Assembly (NCBI GenBank): GCA_020724265.1 | Contig: DYHH01000009.1 | Location: forward strand, 1 to 64,000 | Direction of reading: 5' to 3' | Source of the DNA: Melioribacter roseus | GTDB lineage: Bacteria > Bacteroidota > Ignavibacteria > Ignavibacteriales > Melioribacteraceae | DNA length: 64,000 nucleotides | Shown: in pieces, positions 30,658 to 38,922 of the stretch | How positions within the stretch are numbered: the first letter of the stretch is position 1 | How the letters are laid out: each line of letters begins with the position of its first letter | Made by a program: the position numbers and the translations under genes | Notes under the pieces: generated by a model | Seen by the model: only the letters and a program-made list of their open reading frames with translations | Database searches by the model: none | What the model was told of the DNA's origin: nothing

Positions 30658-32109
30658 TTACTCTTTCTTTAACCGCCATGATTGCGGTAAGAAAAAAAGA
30701 ATAACTCCGTAAATTTCAAGTCGACCCAAAAGCATAACCACAGTTAAGATCCACTTTCCAACATCAGGAATTAAACTGAAATTCCCTGTAGAGCCGACCT
30801 CACCTAAACCGGGACCAACATTTCCGGCGGCAGCAATTGTGCCGGTAAAAGCTTCTAAAGGGTCTACGTTGATTGCAACTAATAATAATCCGCCGATAAA
30901 TACAATTAATAAATAAACAACAATGTATAATATTCCTAAAAATGAATCTTCGTCTTTAATATTCTTCTCACCTATTTTTATACTAATAACAGCGCGGGGA
31001 TGGCGGAGTAATTTAAGTTGTTTTCCAAGTGATTTAAATAACATAACAAATCTATCTGCTTTAATACCTCCCGAAGTAGAACCCGCAGTTGCACATTGAA
31101 GAGCAAAAAACATTAAAAGTATTTGAGACAAGGCAGGATATAAATTTGAATTTGTTGTAGCAAAACCGGTTGAAGTACCTAAAGAAATAACTTGAAAAGC
31201 TGAGTATCGAAGTGCATCTCCGATATTATCGTAATTACTTCCATAAGTACTTGCTGTTACAATAGCCGTACCGGCTATCATTAAAAAAATATAGTATCGG
31301 ACAATTGTTGATTTGAAAATGTTTAACGAACCTTCAAAAAAGGTTGAAAAAAGTAATCCGAAATGTAAACCGGATAATATCATAAAAACGATTATAACTA
31401 TTTCAATTGCCAAATTATCAAAATAGGCAACGCTTGTATTTTTTGGTGAGAAGCCGCCCGTGGCTATTGTTGCAAATGAATGAGTAACTGCATCAAATAT
31501 ATTCATACCGAATATCATTAGTATAATAGTTTCGACAAAAGTTAAACCTACATACACCAATAATACGATTCGAAGAGTTTTCTTTGCAGTTTGTTTAAAA
31601 TTGTCTTGAGCAACAGATGACATTTCTGTTCGATACAGAATCATACTTGCAGAGCCTAAAGAAGGAAGAATAGCGAGAACAAACATAATAATACCCATTC
31701 CACCGAGCCAATGTGTAGTGCTTCGCCAGAATAATAAACCATACGGTAATTTCTCTATATCATTTAATATGGATGAACCTGTAGTAGTAAATCCGGAAAC
31801 ACTTTCAAACCATGCATTAGTAAAGGTAAACTCTCCACCCCACATAACATATGGAAGCATACCAACAACACAAGTGAGAATCCAACCGGTAACTACAATA
31901 AATAGTCCTTCAGTTTGGGTTATCTTGTCGGCGGGCGGAACAAAAATAATTGGAAAGATTCCGAAAAGAGCTGTTACAACAGCACTATAGAATAAAACTC
32001 CGAAAGAATTATCTCCATAAGCTAAACCCACAAAAGCAGAAATAAATAGGAATAGTGAATCGATAAGTAATACTAATCCTACATACCTTAAAACAAAATA
32101 GAGTCTCAT
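30658..32109 (-). CDS. trkH: TrkH-family potassium uptake protein
   Basis: This 483-aa membrane protein moves K+ into the cell. The repeated M1-P-M2 units are visible, with filter-loop sequences SVSGFTTTGSSIL, SFATIATGGFSPKN, LGTSTGFATTN and IAAAGNVGPGLGEVG. The family needs a TrkA/KtrA regulator, and none is encoded in the window. The ATG overlaps the stop of the upstream HAMP-protein gene by four bases, which suggests co-expression and perhaps control of the channel by that protein. Confidence 0.93.
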   Translation of the reverse strand: MRLYFVLRYVGLVLLIDSLFLFISAFVGLAYGDNSFGVLFYSAVVTALFGIFPIIFVPPADKITQTEGLFIVVTGWILTCVVGMLPYVMWGGEFTFTNAWFESVSGFTTTGSSILNDIEKLPYGLLFWRSTTHWLGGMGIIMFVLAILPSLGSASMILYRTEMSSVAQDNFKQTAKKTLRIVLLVYVGLTFVETIILMIFGMNIFDAVTHSFATIATGGFSPKNTSVAYFDNLAIEIVIIVFMILSGLHFGLLFSTFFEGSLNIFKSTIVRYYIFLMIAGTAIVTASTYGSNYDNIGDALRYSAFQVISLGTSTGFATTNSNLYPALSQILLMFFALQCATAGSTSGGIKADRFVMLFKSLGKQLKLLRHPRAVISIKIGEKNIKDEDSFLGILYIVVYLLIVFIGGLLLVAINVDPLEAFTGTIAAAGNVGPGLGEVGSTGNFSLIPDVGKWILTVVMLLGRLEIYGVILFFLPQSWRLKKE

Positions 32110-32870
32110 TTTATATCTCTATTTGCTTCTGATAATGAACAAAGAGTGCTTATTGATCTGTTTAATGATGTCAATTCATCTTTTGATTCGATCTCAACGG
32201 AATACGGTTTTTTCTTTTCAATATATTCTACTACGCCGTTCTTAATTTTCATTATAGGATTAACGAAATAGTAATTGACGAAATAATTGAATAATAATGA
32301 AAAGACTAATGCCGAGATAATTGCAATAATAGCCGGCATGAGAGCCCGGTTAGCTTGTTCACGCAAACTTGAAGCAGTTGAAAACATTGTACGGTCGTTA
32401 ATACTCATTAATTCATTAACTGAAAACTTAACATCTAAAAAGGCTTGGTGAGCATTTTCAAAGTACCAATTAATGTCACCTTCTTTTGAAGTGCCAACAA
32501 TTGGTTTTTCCCAGATTTCCTTAAAGACGATATAATCTTCTCTTATCTTCTTTATATAATCGCCTTCTCCTTCAATCGTCAAATTATTAGAAGCAATATT
32601 GAATGCATGTTGAAATTGCTTATCTGCTTCATCAATAATTTTTCTGCCCTCTTCCCATTTCCCTAAAATAAGAAGTAGAACACCGCTGTCTTCTCTTTCC
32701 AGTGCTTCGATCATTGTTTTAGATGCATCAATACTTTTGTAATTGTCTTCCAATAAATCGTTGACGGAAAACCCAATAGATTTTAATTCATAAATTGACC
32801 AAGCAGCAGCGGCGGCAAGCATTACTACAAGAATGAGAAACCCGGATAGGATTTTTAATCGCAGTTTCAT
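32106..32870 (-). CDS. Membrane sensor with four-helix periplasmic and HAMP domains, no kinase
   Basis: This 254-aa protein from the start at 32870 (GAGGTTAAA before ATG) has TM1 (LKILSGFLILVVMLAAAAAW), a helical periplasmic region of about 150 residues, TM2 (PAIIAIISALVFSLLFNYFV) and a HAMP-like cytoplasmic stretch ending SKDELTSLNRSI. It resembles the sensory half of histidine kinases of the NtrY/KapB type but stops after HAMP. The ATGA overlap with trkH suggests that it acts on K+ uptake, or that it is a kinase shortened by deletion. The upstream ATG at 32993 would add 41 unlikely residues. Confidence 0.75.
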   Translation of the reverse strand: MKLRLKILSGFLILVVMLAAAAAWSIYELKSIGFSVNDLLEDNYKSIDASKTMIEALEREDSGVLLLILGKWEEGRKIIDEADKQFQHAFNIASNNLTIEGEGDYIKKIREDYIVFKEIWEKPIVGTSKEGDINWYFENAHQAFLDVKFSVNELMSINDRTMFSTASSLREQANRALMPAIIAIISALVFSLLFNYFVNYYFVNPIMKIKNGVVEYIEKKKPYSVEIESKDELTSLNRSISTLCSLSEANRDIK

Positions 32871-33103
32871 TTTAACCTCGTTATACAATATTCTTTTGTA
32901 TAAAGAAAAACTACAAGTAAACTTAATCAAATCAGTTATTGATATAAAATTATTTTTTTGTAGTGATTTAAGTGCGGAGGAGATAAAGATCAAGAGTAAG
33001 ATTAAGAGTATGAATATGAGAAAAACTCTGTAAGCTTTAAGCTTCCGAACATTGAATAAGCAAGAAGTCTAAATAGAATATAACTATTACAAAGAAACTT
33101 GTC

Positions 33104-33376
33104 TCAGTCATGAAGAAAAAGTTTTTCGTGCGGACCGCACCACCCGCAAATTCGATCCATAACTGCCATAACAATGTCTTCCTCCGAGTTTCTTCCGGCA
33201 ATACGAAGTTCGGAACGAAACGAATCGAAGATTTGAAGAATTTCAGCTTGGTTATAATTAATAGAAGATAACTCGACTGCAAAAGATGCAAGTCTTTCTT
33301 GCGGATCGGAACTTTTTAATGCAGATTCGAAATAATAATTATAATTATTTTGTTTTTTTAATTTATCTTCACTCAA
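33104..33376 (-). CDS. Small hypothetical protein
   Basis: This 90-aa protein is not recognised. It starts with TTG (SEDKLKKQNN) 9 bases after AGGAG. The sequence is helical and acidic, with VELSSINYNQAEIL and a C-terminal DRICGWCGPHEKL containing a CGWCGPH pair of cysteines that might bind metal or form a disulfide. It is the last gene of a minus-strand run from 37.7 kb. Confidence 0.6.
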   Translation of the reverse strand: MSEDKLKKQNNYNYYFESALKSSDPQERLASFAVELSSINYNQAEILQIFDSFRSELRIAGRNSEEDIVMAVMDRICGWCGPHEKLFLHD

Positions 33377-33440
33377 AATTTTAATCTCCTGTAATCATGC
33401 TTAATTGTCAAATTTGTAAATCATGTATAGTGTCCTTTCT

Positions 33441-34019
33441 TTAAATTGGATAGAATCTTTTTCGAAGATCGTCTATTACTTTTTGAGTTAATGAATGCGG
33501 ATCTTCTGCATCAAAGATTAGTTCACCTGCATCATCTTCCAATTCAACTTTACAAATATATTTTCCTTCTTCTTCGGAAAATTTCGGCGGATATTTAATG
33601 GGTGCCCTGCTATCGCCATAACGCCATTCAATTTTTGCAAGCAGCTCTTCAATAAATTTAAGGATAATAATCTTTTCATCTTCCAAAAGAGGGTTAAGTA
33701 ATTCTTCATTTAACCAATTACTCTTTTCCGATATGGTTCTTTCGGAAATAACTTCATTATGGTCATTAATTATAATTTCTTTTTCATATTCTGTTTGCAT
33801 AGGCGGATTATCAGGTTCATAAGTAAATTCGGTTTCAATGGAAAGAATATATTTAAAGATTACTTTCCAATGTTTGGCGGGTAAGTGTTCAAATTTAAAA
33901 TCGAGAAGATTGTATCCGATGTAACCGAGATGTCCGCTGCCGCCGATTTGTTCGCCCAGAGTTTCTGTTTTTTCTATATAAGACCTAATTAATTTTTCAA
34001 CTTCATTTTTTGTTAACAA
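33441..34019 (-). CDS. Hypothetical cytoplasmic protein
   Basis: This 192-aa protein starts with TTG 8 bases after AAGGAG. It has a central beta region rich in Glu and Tyr (KHWKVIFKYILSIETEF), a helix EKIIILKFIEELLAKIEW and a final strand-helix KYICKVELEDDAGELIFDAE. No signal peptide or membrane helix is present and I do not recognise a family. Some immunity proteins of contact-dependent systems have such small alpha-beta folds, which is only a suggestion from its companions. Confidence 0.65.
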   Translation of the reverse strand: MLTKNEVEKLIRSYIEKTETLGEQIGGSGHLGYIGYNLLDFKFEHLPAKHWKVIFKYILSIETEFTYEPDNPPMQTEYEKEIIINDHNEVISERTISEKSNWLNEELLNPLLEDEKIIILKFIEELLAKIEWRYGDSRAPIKYPPKFSEEEGKYICKVELEDDAGELIFDAEDPHSLTQKVIDDLRKRFYPI

Positions 34020-34030
34020 AGCGAAACTCC

Positions 34031-34255
34031 TTAATTATAATCTTTTCCAGCTGCCGGTATCTTTGCTTTTCTTATTATAAATAATACAGATGTTATAATG
34101 GTAACTATAACAAATAAGGCAGTTCGAATTAGCCAGTATTCGAAATTATTTTGTTCGACGAATATCATTACCAATGAGTATAAGGAACCAATTACAGACA
34201 AGTAAATAATCACTTTAGAAATGACATATAATATTAAGCGTATTTTATAATTCAT
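34031..34255 (-). CDS. Small two-helix membrane protein
   Basis: This 74-aa protein has two hydrophobic helices (LILYVISKVIIYLSVIGSLYSL and WLIRTALFVIVTIITSVLFII) and a short basic tail. Its ATG shares a base with the stop of the WG-repeat gene (TAATG), so the two are coupled. Function unknown. Confidence 0.7.
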   Translation of the reverse strand: MNYKIRLILYVISKVIIYLSVIGSLYSLVMIFVEQNNFEYWLIRTALFVIVTIITSVLFIIRKAKIPAAGKDYN

Positions 34256-36132
34256 TATTCTTCTTGAAATAATTTTATGGTATCAATTTCATCAACATAA
34301 AAAAATCGTCCCGAACCCATTACATCAACGTGTATAAATGAAAAATCCTTGTACTCAAATTTATTCAGGTCAACACTCAGCTCTTTTAACAGATCGTGTA
34401 ATTCATTTTTTGAAATTTGTTTCGTCAACTTTCTTAACCTATTTCCTACTTCGGCTAATAATAACTCATCTCTCGACGGTTTATATTCTTTGGGATTTGC
34501 ACCAAGGATTAAGTTTCCTTCTTCCCATTTTCCCGGATCGATGGTAGAATTTTCCATATAATACTCAAACAGTTTGATAAGCTCGGATAAATTTTTCATA
34601 TCGGAATCAGGAAGTTTTTCGAAGACTTCATTTAATTCAGGCATATAATCAAGCATTGTGTCCGGAGTTTGTTTTGGCTGGTAATCCTCAAAAATATTTT
34701 CTTCGTAATCATATTGTTTTTCATTAAACGTTTCATCAACAAACAACCATTTCCCAAGTCTTTCTTCATACTTATCATAAAGAAAATTAACATAACTATT
34801 GGCAGCTGAAAACAACTCTCTTATTTTTGATTTAGTATTGATAAATACTTCGTTTCTTTTTCCGGGAAAATCATAGACTTCTTTAAGTGCTTCTTCAAAA
34901 TACTTTAGAAGATCATCCTCAACAGATGTATAATAAGTATCTATTGGCATATCGTCTGTTTTAATCCATCTTTTCTTTATAACACCGATATCAGGAACAA
35001 ACTGCAGATATATCATTTTACCAATTGTAATCTTTCTCCACTCTGATTCCTTTGGTAAAACCGTGCCGGATTCAGCTACCTGTAAATCGGCATAATGGCG
35101 ATAAAGTTTTTTTGAAATGAATTGTACATTTCCCGGGAATGTGATGTTATAATCATGTATTTCTTGATTAAAATTCTTTTCAATAACTGTTTCAAAAAGT
35201 TTATTAAAGTTTTCTATTAAAATGATATCGCTATTATTCTTTTCTCTTGGTTTTATAGTTAAATACACTACTGCATAATCTGTAACTGTGCTTAGTTCGG
35301 TAAGTGAAATCAAAATTTCATTTTCATGTTTAACGGAAAAACTTTGCAATGGGATAATGTCGTATTCAAGTAATTCTCTTCCTTCATTATTCAGAATGTT
35401 AATTTGCAGATATTCCGAAATTTCGTTTGCACTAAAAACATACTTATCATTATTCAACCAATTCATTTTTACGGCAACTTTGTTTTCAAAAAATAATTTT
35501 GCGATTAGTTCTGCTGTAATTCCAAGGAGATTAATCCATTCGTTGTATTTCATATTATCCATTTTTACCTGTTCACCTTTTTTATTAATAAGAATAACAT
35601 TTCCCCTATATTCAACTTGAGCAATTCCATAATCAAATTGTTCAATTACCTGATCATACTTTGCATGTATTTTTATTTCACCGGCTTTATTTATAAAACC
35701 CCATTTACCCCCTTCCCAGCTTTTGTGTTCGCCATATATTCTTTCGGAACAACCCTCACAGTAAGCTGCCATTCCATTTATAAACGGAAGTGCCGCATCA
35801 AACTGAGGAAAGATTATAATCCTTCCTTGTAAATCGGCATAACCGATTTTTCCTTTTTCAATTATTCTGAACATTCCTTCCGAAGGGTAATCGGGACCAT
35901 TATCAAACGGGAACACTTCAAACAATGCATTTTCATTTTTATCAACAGCAACAAAACCGACTCCTTCTTTATAAACGATGTCTTTAATTTTCGAAGAATC
36001 CAATTGTAAATTATGTTGGTTTATTACGGTGCTTGAAAGTTGATTGATAGAATCTTTTGCACCATTACAAAAATTCTTACCACTTGAAACCATAAGAAGA
36101 ATTAAAACGACAATATACATCTGTTTTTTCAT
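34255..36132 (-). CDS. Exported WG-repeat protein
   Basis: This 625-aa protein has a signal peptide (YIVVLILLMVSSG) and, in residues about 75-170, WG/KWG repeats (EGMFRIIEKGKIGYADLQGR, GGKWGFINKAGEIKIHAKYD). These are 20-residue beta units found in secreted or surface proteins of Bacteroidetes and Leptospira. The remaining 440 residues are unassigned: two beta-helical segments and a C-terminal helix-rich part with DELLLAEVGNRLRKLTKQ. It probably lies in the periplasm. It is flanked by a zinc-ribbon gene and a small membrane protein, and its function is unknown. Confidence 0.75.
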   Translation of the reverse strand: MKKQMYIVVLILLMVSSGKNFCNGAKDSINQLSSTVINQHNLQLDSSKIKDIVYKEGVGFVAVDKNENALFEVFPFDNGPDYPSEGMFRIIEKGKIGYADLQGRIIIFPQFDAALPFINGMAAYCEGCSERIYGEHKSWEGGKWGFINKAGEIKIHAKYDQVIEQFDYGIAQVEYRGNVILINKKGEQVKMDNMKYNEWINLLGITAELIAKLFFENKVAVKMNWLNNDKYVFSANEISEYLQINILNNEGRELLEYDIIPLQSFSVKHENEILISLTELSTVTDYAVVYLTIKPREKNNSDIILIENFNKLFETVIEKNFNQEIHDYNITFPGNVQFISKKLYRHYADLQVAESGTVLPKESEWRKITIGKMIYLQFVPDIGVIKKRWIKTDDMPIDTYYTSVEDDLLKYFEEALKEVYDFPGKRNEVFINTKSKIRELFSAANSYVNFLYDKYEERLGKWLFVDETFNEKQYDYEENIFEDYQPKQTPDTMLDYMPELNEVFEKLPDSDMKNLSELIKLFEYYMENSTIDPGKWEEGNLILGANPKEYKPSRDELLLAEVGNRLRKLTKQISKNELHDLLKELSVDLNKFEYKDFSFIHVDVMGSGRFFYVDEIDTIKLFQEE

Positions 36133-36157
36133 TAGCTTTATCTTAGATGAATGTTTA

Positions 36158-36469
36158 TCATTTTTCTTCCAAATATATTTCGCATGTGTAACCTGTATAC
36201 TCAGACTTAACGATTAAGTTAGATTTACAGTGGGGACAAATTAAATTGAACTTATTATTACCAGTTAAAAATTTATCATGGATTAATCTGATTGGTTCAA
36301 AACATGAGGGACAATCTTCATGCTTAAGGGCAATGTGGGATGGAATTTTAATACTCTTGTCAATTTGTTTCCAATTTTCTTCTAAAGAAGCGATATCAGC
36401 AAACTCCTGTAAATTGTCAGGTGATTGAAGAAGATTTATTACTCTTTCATTTAATTCATCTGCAGTCAT
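36158..36469 (-). CDS. Zinc-ribbon protein
   Basis: This 103-aa cytoplasmic protein has an N-terminal helix (TADELNERVINLLQSPDN) and two CxxC knuckles: CPSCFEPIRL at about residue 53 and CPHCKSNLI at about 80. A short C-terminal YTGYTCEIYLEE follows. It starts one base after the stop of the papain-like lipoprotein gene. No enzymatic motif is visible. Confidence 0.75.
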   Translation of the reverse strand: MTADELNERVINLLQSPDNLQEFADIASLEENWKQIDKSIKIPSHIALKHEDCPSCFEPIRLIHDKFLTGNNKFNLICPHCKSNLIVKSEYTGYTCEIYLEEK

Positions 36470-36470
36470 T

Positions 36471-37727
36471 TTAGTCTGCTTGTATTATTGCTACAAAGTA
36501 AAAATATTCAAAGGGTCCATCTCCAGCAATATTATCAGATTTATTAAAATGCCTTCCAAGTACCGAGTTTGAATCTAACATGCGTAAATCTAATTCGTTT
36601 TTGTCCGGGTCATAATATATCCACGTCACCGCATCATAATCGACAATTTGTAAGCTATTCTGCCCTCCAACAAAATCAATATCAACCCAGTGACCAAACT
36701 CTGGATAATCATAAATAAGAAGTTTTAGATTGTGTCGAGATTCAAAATGAGTTAATAAATCTTCTTGCGTTACATTTTGTTGAAGTAGTTTAGCAAAGTA
36801 ATGTTTGTTATTTAGAACATATTCAGTTGATCGATAGAAATTTTTGTCAATATTACTAATAAGTTTTGCTGCACGAGTACCGAATATATTAGAGTGATTA
36901 AGCGCTTCGCCTATCAAGTCCCACTCGTAGGCGTTAATAGTTACATAGGGAGAAAGTGCATCCGGAAATGTTGTCTGCATACATCTAACAAAAGCACTAA
37001 TACCACAATAATTATCATTATGCATAGCACCTTTGGGTGCAGACGCTCCATATATAAAATCTTCACTCTTACTGTTCGATATAACCAGTGGAAGTTCATT
37101 CTCCATTAGATAAACTAAGTAATTGATTCCCGATTTGTAATCATAAGAATAATTATTAATTACAAAATTGTTAAAAGCAGATTTCCCATCTCCCAAATCA
37201 ATTACCTCAATTCCTGATGGAAATTCGAGTACAGGAGAAAATATTTTTTTTTGATTGATTTGTGATACATTATACACTTCTTCCGGATTAATAAATTTCA
37301 ATTGCATTTCAATTTCTATTTCATCGTATGCATTTCCTTTTCTTGTAATTTCAACAAAGAATAGTTTTGATGACTTTTGAAATTCAACAGCATCCACCTC
37401 AAGATTTCCTTCAAAATTCTTAATGAAGGTTATTGAATCTTGTAGAGGTATTGCGCTGTCCTTTTCATATACAGCAAAAGCTAAATTGGAATTTGATGAA
37501 TGTACGAGGTATCCCGGTTCCGGTATTTCTAACCATAGTATTTTTCTTTGTTCATTAGGTTTTAAGATAACATCCGGTTTGATCAGATATGCAAAATCGT
37601 TGTGCTTAGGAGTATCCTCATTTTCAAGAAGATCGCAAGAGATGATAGATAAAGACAGAATTACTAAGGTAAAAGTGAAAAGGAAAATTATATTGATATG
37701 ATTATAGGAACGTTCCCCGGAAGACAT
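36471..37727 (-). CDS. Lipoprotein with papain-like cysteine protease-type domain
   Basis: This 418-aa protein starts at 37727; GGAGG lies 5 bases before this ATG and overlaps the alternative ATG at 37739. The signal sequence ends with lipobox SIISC, so it is anchored in a membrane. The first 180 mature residues are beta-rich. From about residue 235 a sequence DNYCGISAFVRCMQ resembles the Cys-helix start of papain-like or C39-like peptidases, followed about 115 residues later by FGHWVDIDFVG and VDYDAVTWIYYD, which fit the catalytic His and Asp strands. The substrate and even activity are unproven. It heads the minus-strand run to 33.1 kb. Confidence 0.65.
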   Translation of the reverse strand: MSSGERSYNHINIIFLFTFTLVILSLSIISCDLLENEDTPKHNDFAYLIKPDVILKPNEQRKILWLEIPEPGYLVHSSNSNLAFAVYEKDSAIPLQDSITFIKNFEGNLEVDAVEFQKSSKLFFVEITRKGNAYDEIEIEMQLKFINPEEVYNVSQINQKKIFSPVLEFPSGIEVIDLGDGKSAFNNFVINNYSYDYKSGINYLVYLMENELPLVISNSKSEDFIYGASAPKGAMHNDNYCGISAFVRCMQTTFPDALSPYVTINAYEWDLIGEALNHSNIFGTRAAKLISNIDKNFYRSTEYVLNNKHYFAKLLQQNVTQEDLLTHFESRHNLKLLIYDYPEFGHWVDIDFVGGQNSLQIVDYDAVTWIYYDPDKNELDLRMLDSNSVLGRHFNKSDNIAGDGPFEYFYFVAIIQAD

Positions 37728-37876
37728 GGTAGCCTCCATTGCCTTGTAGGTTAAAATAATAAATAATACATAAAAGAAGAACTAATCCGGATAGTAGCTC
37801 TTATATTAACGTGAAACTTTAGAATGGCATTGAAAAGAATATCTAATTTTTATAAAAGTAAAATTGTTTCCGATAA

Positions 37877-38830
37877 TCAATCTTTAATACACCTAATACA
37901 AAAGCCATCGCTTTTGTCGCTTACATAAAACGTAACATTACTTTTGTCTGCAAGCAATGCAATATTATACGCAGTTTGATTATTGTATTCATCCGAACTC
38001 CAGAAGCTGGCATTATTATTTATCAGAAAAAAATTGCCAAGATAGCGGTACCCCGAAAGAATAGCTGAAAATCCACTTGTGTTTGTTCCGGCTCCGGGTC
38101 CAGTTCCTTCTCCCAATGCTTTGAGGGCATTACCGTCGTAATTAACATTTGCTAATAGAATCATAAATTCATCAGCTGTAGGAATATGCCACCCCGGAGG
38201 ACACAAACCTTGTGTCTCTCTTTCTTGAGCATATTGCATTGCTTCATCCCATTGATAAAGTCCTCCGTTAGAATCGCAATTAACTTCGTTGTTGTCATAG
38301 CAATACTTTTCAATAATACCATTGTTCGTCTGATCTTCATCACCGTTAATCATAACTCCTATATTCAAATTTTCTTTTAACCAGCATTGATCTGCAATGC
38401 GAATTGTTTGATAAGCTTTACCTCCGTATGTAATAAATGGAGGACAAATATCCGAACTATCATCTTCGACATAAACAACAACAGTTGCTTCAACAAAATC
38501 AATTCCGTCGCTTACAGTTGCGACTATTAAATACGAGCCGCTATTGATCGGGGCAATCCATTTAACAGATGAACCATTATTTCCTAATGGGAATGTTCCT
38601 TCATCTGCTTCCCATTCAATGGATAAAACATCTCCATCCGGATCGCTTGCAGTACAAATTAGTGTTGTTTCTTCGTTAATTATTATTGTTTCAGGATTAG
38701 CAGTAATGTTATGAATTATTGGTTTTCTGTTTACAGGTTCGCTAACATCATCAGTACAGCTAACATTAATTAGTGTGATAATAAGTGCAAGAATAAAAAA
38801 ATAAGGTGGATAAAAAGGTGATTTCTTCAT
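37877..38830 (-). CDS. FISUMP-domain lipoprotein
   Basis: This 317-aa exported lipoprotein (ALIITLINVSC lipobox) has an Ig/PKD-like domain (SDPDGDVLSIEWEADEGTF) followed by the 'Fibrobacter succinogenes major paralogous' domain at about residues 140-316: GKAYQTIRIADQCWLKENL, a GGLYQWDEAM helix and QGLCPPGWHIPTADEF, with WSSDEYNN and FCIRCIKD at the end. Such proteins are surface-exposed in Fibrobacter and Bacteroidetes and probably mediate binding. Start at 38830 is chosen because the longer frame would put polar residues before the signal. Confidence 0.87.
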   Translation of the reverse strand: MKKSPFYPPYFFILALIITLINVSCTDDVSEPVNRKPIIHNITANPETIIINEETTLICTASDPDGDVLSIEWEADEGTFPLGNNGSSVKWIAPINSGSYLIVATVSDGIDFVEATVVVYVEDDSSDICPPFITYGGKAYQTIRIADQCWLKENLNIGVMINGDEDQTNNGIIEKYCYDNNEVNCDSNGGLYQWDEAMQYAQERETQGLCPPGWHIPTADEFMILLANVNYDGNALKALGEGTGPGAGTNTSGFSAILSGYRYLGNFFLINNNASFWSSDEYNNQTAYNIALLADKSNVTFYVSDKSDGFCIRCIKD

Positions 38831-38922
38831 AACACACCCGAATGACCAAATAAACATTCTTCAGTAGAAAACTTTCTAAGTGAATGTAGCTATAATCTAA
38901 TAATCAAACAATTCCATTATTT

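Follow-up and report, generated by a model that had tools for sequence, protein, structure and literature searches.

Which of six consecutive genes, read in a first-pass annotation as one operon-like system around a papain-like lipoprotein, form a unit that is kept together elsewhere, and what could such a unit do? We consider this question for a stretch of 64,000 nucleotides from Melioribacter roseus (GenBank assembly GCA_020724265.1, contig DYHH01000009.1, positions 1 to 64,000 of the forward strand), referred to here as the window. The six open reading frames (ORFs) are all present on the minus strand, as had been stated, in the order A-B-C-D-E-F. They do not make up one conserved unit, since only B-C-D-E recur, with C-(D)-E as the core; this compact cassette is patchily distributed and lies in mostly unrelated neighbourhoods, and A and F are orphans. 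The genes of the cassette are the following (aa, amino acids).

36158..36469, minus strand: gene B (103 aa), cytosolic zinc-ribbon protein, heads the cassette here as well as in three relatives
34255..36132, minus strand: gene C (625 aa), WG-repeat protein with a signal-peptide-like start, core of the cassette
34031..34255, minus strand: gene D (74 aa), two hydrophobic segments, conserved tail RKxx(F/W/Y/I)PxxGxDY
33441..34019, minus strand: gene E (192 aa), two-domain protein without hydrophobic segment, with a TTG start that matches the starts of its homologues

A compact cassette in mostly unrelated neighbourhoods

Scanning an 84,980-species collection with the alignment of C yielded 79 loci (two motif patterns; best 80 of 137 confirmed kept). 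We count as C loci the window and those 14 loci whose ORF covers both the middle region and the C-terminal domain of C (L033-L043, L045, L046 and L047, among which L033, L034, L035 and L041 are the loci of the relatives G044, G012, G030 and G026), with a decayed copy (L044) and a copy at a contig end (L048) omitted; the remaining loci of the scan hold the C-terminal domain only or WG-type matches only. The WG part is missing from four of the 15 C loci (L038, L042, L043 and L046) and lies upstream in another frame in L047.

The N-terminal domain of E (E-N) stands directly behind C in 12 of the 15 C loci (window, L034-L042, L045 and L047), the three others being a split set (L033) as well as L043 and L046, and D lies between C and E in 9 of these 12. 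The C-(D)-E arrangement recurs in Bacteroidetes, Chlorobiota and KSB1 records, and the flanks of the C loci mostly differ, except among near relatives such as L036/L037 and L039/L040/L045. B is found upstream of C in 4 of the 15 C loci, with tblastn of B matching 3 of the 14 other loci. The clustering elsewhere that had been set as a check on the six genes is thus seen for B, C, D and E, and for neither A nor F, which are found in none of the 14 other C loci.

The same picture emerges from a set of 116 genomes, 23 of which have a match to C, in 18 cases to the repeat part only, leaving five with near full-length C (the source genome, G012, G026, G030 and G044). E is present in exactly these five genomes (hypergeometric P = 6e-9, uncorrected for relatedness), and B in four genomes, source included. 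Among the four relatives, G012 and G030 carry B-C-D-E, G026 carries C-D-E, and G044 has a split set, in which B-C lies beside a transposase-like gene and a second B, a fragment of the end of C (residues 541-621) with a stop, D and E follow about 2.8 kb away. The gene upstream of the cassette is different in each (M23-peptidase-like, RNA-methyltransferase-like, NFACT-like and DUF4340-like, with ORFs read by eye). In 282 genomes sampled from the phylum, E-N occurs twice, both times in a genome carrying C.

With respect to the layout of the locus, the spacing described earlier as 1-base gaps or overlaps applies to A/B (1 bp) and to C/D (an overlap of 1 bp), while B/C, D/E and E/F are separated by 25, 11 and 64 bp. 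Gene A starts at 37739; the end coordinate given before, 37727, is its next in-frame ATG. That the six genes share a strand proves nothing by itself, since every one of 14 consecutive genes that we picked between 27371 and 41473 runs in the minus direction.

A mobile origin is not supported by the plasmid, phage and viral-contig searches. Plasmids gave no match of E, A, F or the C-terminal domain of C (B and D were not part of this search), and five plasmid records matched C via the WG part only; phages gave no match of the C-terminal domain; viral contigs gave no match of A, C, E-N or the C-terminal domain (B and D again being outside the search). A scan of all six proteins against the anti-phage defence models of PADLOC returned no match above chance.

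Gene C ends in an unnamed domain shared with archaea

Gene C consists of a WG-repeat region, a middle region and a C-terminal domain, of which the following parts are referred to below.

34270..34710, minus strand: unnamed C-terminal domain of C, residues 475-621 (alignment of 28 sequences, 18 invariant columns)
34306..34332, minus strand: motif HxDVMGSGR, residues 601-609 of C, the same in each of 28 aligned sequences except at x
35563..35991, minus strand: WG-repeat, propeller-like region of C, residues 48-190 (Pfam PF14903 and model)

The C-terminal domain spans about 150 residues with the pattern DYxPK...HxDVMGSGRFFY, and the residues invariant in 28 bacterial and archaeal sequences include Lys487, Asp491, Asp495, Glu556, His601, Asp603, Ser607 and Arg609. 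It has no significant match in Pfam, NCBIfam, PHROGs or PDB sequences (best PDB E = 0.13). In Myxococcales and Alphaproteobacteria records the domain forms the tail of exported or lipoprotein-like sequences (signals read by eye), and in Lokiarchaeota and Sigynarchaeota it stands alone as a protein of about 150-170 aa without signal peptide. Contamination is an unlikely source of the archaeal copies, because 17 of 195 genomes, sampled from the phylum to which a Lokiarchaeota record belongs, contain the domain and because it has the same neighbours in L071, L080 and L087 (small GTPase, transporter-like and acyl-CoA-synthetase-like ORFs).

We also observe that the Lokiarchaeota stand-alone gene (L071 5596-6057, L087 6995-7456, L080 6995-7456) lies beside a gene for a small Ras-like GTPase (TIGR00231, E = 1e-19 in L087), with the two genes divergently oriented and their neighbourhood conserved. 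In three alphaproteobacterial records (L076 6101-7501, L089 6239-7453, L090 5927-7447) the domain is fused to an N-terminal 'LRRASDV' region, and these proteins also carry a peptidoglycan-binding-like stretch (both read by eye).

Of C, described earlier as a WG-repeat exported protein, the repeat part is borne out by Pfam PF14903 (WG_beta_rep; 44.4 bits against a cut-off of 25.6, E = 1.7e-11). A structure model of C (28 sequences; mean predicted local distance difference test score, pLDDT, 85.9; predicted template modelling score, pTM, 0.60) begins with a helix followed by disorder, which is signal-peptide-like. The WG region comes next and is propeller-like; after it come a mixed middle region, a stretch of helix and finally the C-terminal domain, whose closing hairpin carries the HxDVMGSGR motif at the turn. 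Foldseek returned no solved structure for this model at E = 0.001 or better, and VIA rows mainly cover residues 48-190, with Z up to 6.7. Several homologues of C have signal-peptide- or lipoprotein-like starts, as read by eye. For gene B, the zinc ribbon proposed before agrees with two CPxC knuckles that are invariant in all five B sequences.

A small two-segment protein and a two-domain protein follow C

Downstream of C, the conserved parts of D and E are placed as follows.

34037..34072, minus strand: conserved C-terminal tail of D, residues 62-73 (alignment)
33735..34019, minus strand: E-N, residues 1-95 of E, predicted helix and four long strands, NTF2/VirB8-like (model, profile searches)
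33450..33692, minus strand: E-C, residues 110-190 of E, predicted alpha-beta-beta-beta-alpha (model, profile searches)

Neither protein has anything above chance level in Pfam, PADLOC, NCBIfam or PHROGs, the PADLOC matches to ThsA for D (E = 0.085) and to PDC-S05 for E (E = 0.052) being at chance level. The AlphaFold model of E (14 sequences, mean pLDDT 89.2, pTM 0.55) has a helix at residues 4-18 and strands at 22-25, 31-46, 50-63, 74-84 and 90-100. The top VIA-align ranks go to VirB8 homologues and NTF2-like folds, for the most part aligned within residues 1-102, with Z from 7.2 to 8.8 in the 50 rows shown, close to what the tool itself rates as common. Foldseek returned nothing at E = 0.001 (best E = 5.1e-3), and neither did a search of viral structures at this threshold.

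The two domains of E look separable. E-N has no E-C directly behind it in L036, L038, L039, L040 and L045 (L045 ends 211 bp later; an assembly gap in L037 hides what comes after E-N), the two domains are separate ORFs in G030 (L035) and G026 (L041), and E-C is located separately in G527 and G530, to which the C loci L040 and L048 belong. Given these separate occurrences, we rejected the reading of E in G026 and G030 as a broken gene; for G030, where an in-frame stop lies between the domains, a decayed copy is possible. The split between the two domains of E in two relatives lies at L031 6900-6907 and L032 7377-7387, caused in one by a frame change with overlapping ORFs and in the other by an in-frame stop. 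Free-standing E-C of 96-100 aa is present in two Bacteroidales (L121 5540-5842, L120 5534-5824), in both of which a similar ORF, read as TrkA-C-like, lies nearby. In two Sigynarchaeota (L118 4968-6114, L116 6330-7454), E-N is directly behind a gene of 267-278 aa of unknown family.

Outside the bacterial cassette, E-N turned up in 4 of 12 archaeal genomes that had been selected for having the C-terminal domain. Across the Asgard sample of 195 genomes, the C-terminal domain occurs in 17, E-N in 9 and both in 4 (P = 0.004, uncorrected for relatedness). This co-occurrence is weak, because two of the four double-positive genomes (G502 and G512) supplied rows of the E-N profile and because the E-N sequence of a third (G505) is interrupted by an in-frame stop. 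Of the 17 Asgard genomes with the domain, 13 gave no E-N, which incomplete assemblies may hide in some of them. Six bacterial genomes that have the C-terminal domain alone (one from Myxococcales, one from Deltaproteobacteria and four taken as Alphaproteobacteria) gave no match to E, and neither did the genome with the decayed C copy (L044). Beside these counts, a Spirochaetales metagenome-assembled genome (L046 8272-9687) encodes a C-like lipoprotein followed by two similar proteins of 225-230 aa with SH3-like starts (read by eye).

Genes A and F lie outside the cassette

The two outer genes of the run and the candidate catalytic codons of A are given below; the assignment of the three codons is by motif only.

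36471..37739, minus strand: gene A (422 aa), lipoprotein, orphan, candidate Cys-His-Asp protease-like C-terminal half, outside the conserved cassette
37005..37007, minus strand: codon of the candidate nucleophile Cys245 of A (NYCGIS)
36690-36692, minus strand: His350 codon of A
36639-36641, minus strand: Asp367 codon of A
33104..33376, minus strand: gene F (90 aa), orphan, TTG start, outside the conserved cassette

The lipoprotein nature of A claimed before agrees with a lipobox (...LSIISC35, read by eye from the sequence). What had been called papain-like is an impression from the motif. Cys245, His350 and Asp367 follow each other in the order of a candidate triad, whose order and spacing we take to be C39-like, and A may by this motif be a C39-like protease; the motif is seen in this one sequence. 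Pfam and NCBIfam, peptidase profiles included, gave no family for the whole protein at E = 1 and none for the C-terminal half at E = 10. Against PDB sequences A gave only one chance-level match (E = 3.4).

Among 146 genomes of relatives of the source, A matches only itself. Its catalytic half gave, in 395 genomes, the self-match and three weak matches (E = 0.002-0.009) that we judged spurious and rejected as homologues, the ORF in L113 being read as a methyltransferase and that in L114 as a phosphoesterase, and the match in L115 having stops inside. F has no hydrophobic segment and, like A, gave nothing above chance level in Pfam, PADLOC, NCBIfam or PHROGs; its only match is itself both among the 116 genomes and among the 282 phylum genomes. 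Neither A nor F has a tblastn match at E = 1 beside the 14 other C loci. A was therefore rejected as a core gene, having no credible homologue in relatives, viral contigs, plasmids, the phylum sample or the 14 C loci, and so was F as part of the cassette, without homologue in relatives, phylum or plasmids and with none beside the 14 loci. We regard A as a local neighbour, though its stop is 1 bp from the start of B, because it lacks a homologue beside other C loci; what links it to the cassette is a gap of 1 bp in a single genome.

Further out in the window, a Fib_succ_major protein (37877-38857, 99.2 bits) is encoded upstream of A on the same strand, 137 bp away, with Ig/PKD-like matches that fall below cut-off. 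On the other side of the six genes, in 30658-32993, a membrane protein with a below-cut-off match to a four-helix-bundle sensor and no kinase hit overlaps, at its end, with an ORF that we read as encoding a TrkH-like transporter.

What the cassette may do

We favour, tentatively, an envelope-spanning module made of exported C, membrane hairpin D and cytosolic E. It is taken as the most likely explanation because of the localisations inferred from predicted topology (C outside, D in the membrane, E in the cytosol), with two hydrophobic segments in D and none in E. Also in its favour are the presence of near full-length C and E in exactly the same five of 116 genomes, the position of E-N directly behind C in 12 of 15 C loci with mostly different flanks, the 18 invariant columns of the C-terminal domain, and protein distances of C that correlate with those of E-N (r = 0.54, P = 0.0001, n = 13) and of D (r = 0.57, P = 0.0037, n = 10). 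Under such an arrangement, C would be exported by Sec and work in the envelope as a receptor or enzyme, its C-terminal domain binding or processing a ligand via the conserved Lys/Asp/Glu/His/Ser/Arg set. D would form an inner-membrane hairpin with its conserved tail facing the cytosol by the positive-inside rule, and E would be the cytosolic partner, receiving or passing on a signal through D. A and F are, in our inference, bystanders beside the cassette in this genome.

Several observations weigh against an envelope-spanning module. The hydrophobic N-terminus of C is short, with no 19-residue window above 1.6 on the Kyte-Doolittle scale, and the Asgard C-terminal domain has no signal peptide, so that the compartment differs. 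D is absent from 3 of the 12 C-E loci (L036, L037 and L045), though it is the sole route by which C and E would meet, and the genomes of L043 and L046 have C and no E match anywhere. Two divergent Asgard copies of the domain (L129 3612-4391, L130 1286-1921) lack the DYxPK start; they have a C-terminal extension and the motifs HVDVVGSGR and YVDVVGTGR. Since Tyr and Thr thus replace His601 and Ser607 in one of them, these two residues are disfavoured as catalytic. Finally, a correlation of protein distances would also arise from plain vertical inheritance.

Two other functional readings of the cassette appear rather unlikely. In the one, C would be an exported toxin with an active C-terminal domain, and D and/or E its immunity proteins. 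The shared domain is C-terminal in all 28 aligned sequences, behind different N-terminal parts, a small protein with a predicted NTF2-like fold and a two-transmembrane protein stand directly behind C, and the displaced set of G044, with its second B, stop-bearing C fragment, D and E, would fit as well; NTF2-fold and two-transmembrane immunity proteins are described in PMC3482391. This reading is opposed by a C-terminal domain that shows conservation, with 18 columns invariant over 28 sequences, and not polymorphism, by stand-alone Asgard copies without signal peptide, two divergent ones of which carry C-terminal extensions, and by the absence of a found E-N in 13 of 17 Asgard genomes with the domain and in all six bacterial genomes tested. 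No known toxin, immunity or trafficking domain is above cut-off in Pfam, PADLOC or NCBIfam. The interbacterial role suggested in the first-pass annotation may still apply, but no defence, toxin or immunity family is above cut-off, and the domain occurs also as stand-alone archaeal proteins that have no signal peptide. In the other reading, of a similarly low probability, C would be a periplasmic scaffold or enzyme for envelope assembly, with D and E as assembly factors or chaperones. The domain's presence in lipoprotein-like sequences of Myxococcales, Spirochaetales and Alphaproteobacteria records (read by eye) and the resemblance of the E-N model to VirB8/TraM-type domains (Z up to 8.8) speak for such a housekeeping or cargo role; the patchy distribution (5 of 116 genomes) and the fact that the VirB8-like match is only at common-fold level speak against it.

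Far less probable is the earlier proposal that all six genes make up a cell-surface system with a papain-like lipoprotein protease at its head. The 1-bp gap between A and B, the lipobox of A and its C39-like order of Cys245, His350 and Asp367 are in its favour, and they are outweighed by the lack of any tblastn match of A and F beside the 14 C loci and of a credible homologue elsewhere. That the genes are chance neighbours without common function would accord with the single strand of all genes picked between 27371 and 41473, and is highly improbable for the locus as a whole, as an adjacency of C and E in 12 of 15 loci, from several phyla and with mostly different flanks, is far beyond chance. 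A and F still fit this last reading, which C, D and E contradict.

Novelty and comparison with known systems

WG-repeat proteins and NTF2-like folds are already known. None of the searched libraries gave a significant match to the C-terminal domain of C, to the D family, to E-N or E-C, or to their combination, and we found no literature on the C-terminal domain, D, E-N or E-C in open-access text. There is a small chance, in our estimate, that the C-terminal domain and E-N are two old, unnamed and functionally linked families common to Bacteroidota-group bacteria and Asgard archaea, a new pair of enzyme or receptor and partner whose archaeal versions lack a signal peptide and which in bacteria is split across the membrane by export of C and the hairpin of D. 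If so, the locus would add at least two conserved domain families without a name in the searched libraries, one of them with striking conserved polar residues kept from Bacteroidota to Lokiarchaeota, and the bacterial cassette would supply a partner (E) and a membrane link (D) for probing the role of both. The eye-catching protease-like gene A is, together with F, the least conserved part of the locus.

Compared with C39-type papain-fold peptidases, A has C-G-I-S at the candidate Cys, GHW and then VDYD, with a His-Asp spacing of 17; it differs in that its C-terminal half lacks a profile match even at E = 10 and that A is an orphan. The cassette resembles polymorphic toxin-immunity loci (PMC3482391) in the shared C-terminal domain of C followed by small downstream genes. 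It differs from them in that this conserved domain is itself the shared part, where those loci have variable C-terminal toxin domains on a shared N-terminal part, that no trafficking domain is found in Pfam, and that stand-alone copies of the domain exist without signal peptide and without E.

E-N is nearest to the NTF2-like superfamily and its VirB8/TraM branch, its model aligning with the VirB8 homologue CagV (6iqt_A; Z = 8.8, root mean square deviation 2.9, 92 residues) and with structures of NTF2, the CaMKII hub and ketosteroid isomerase (Z = 7-8). In contrast to these families, E-N has no significant sequence match in Pfam, NCBIfam or PDB (best E = 0.027), and E differs from the VirB8/TraM branch in lacking a transmembrane anchor and in having its own motifs, GGSGHLGYVSY and ETEFTYxPDNPPYEY, conserved in E-N. 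C is like the WG_beta_rep proteins (PF14903) in that its residues from about 48 to 190 carry the repeat and are modelled as propeller-like blades, to which it adds a middle region and the unnamed C-terminal domain.

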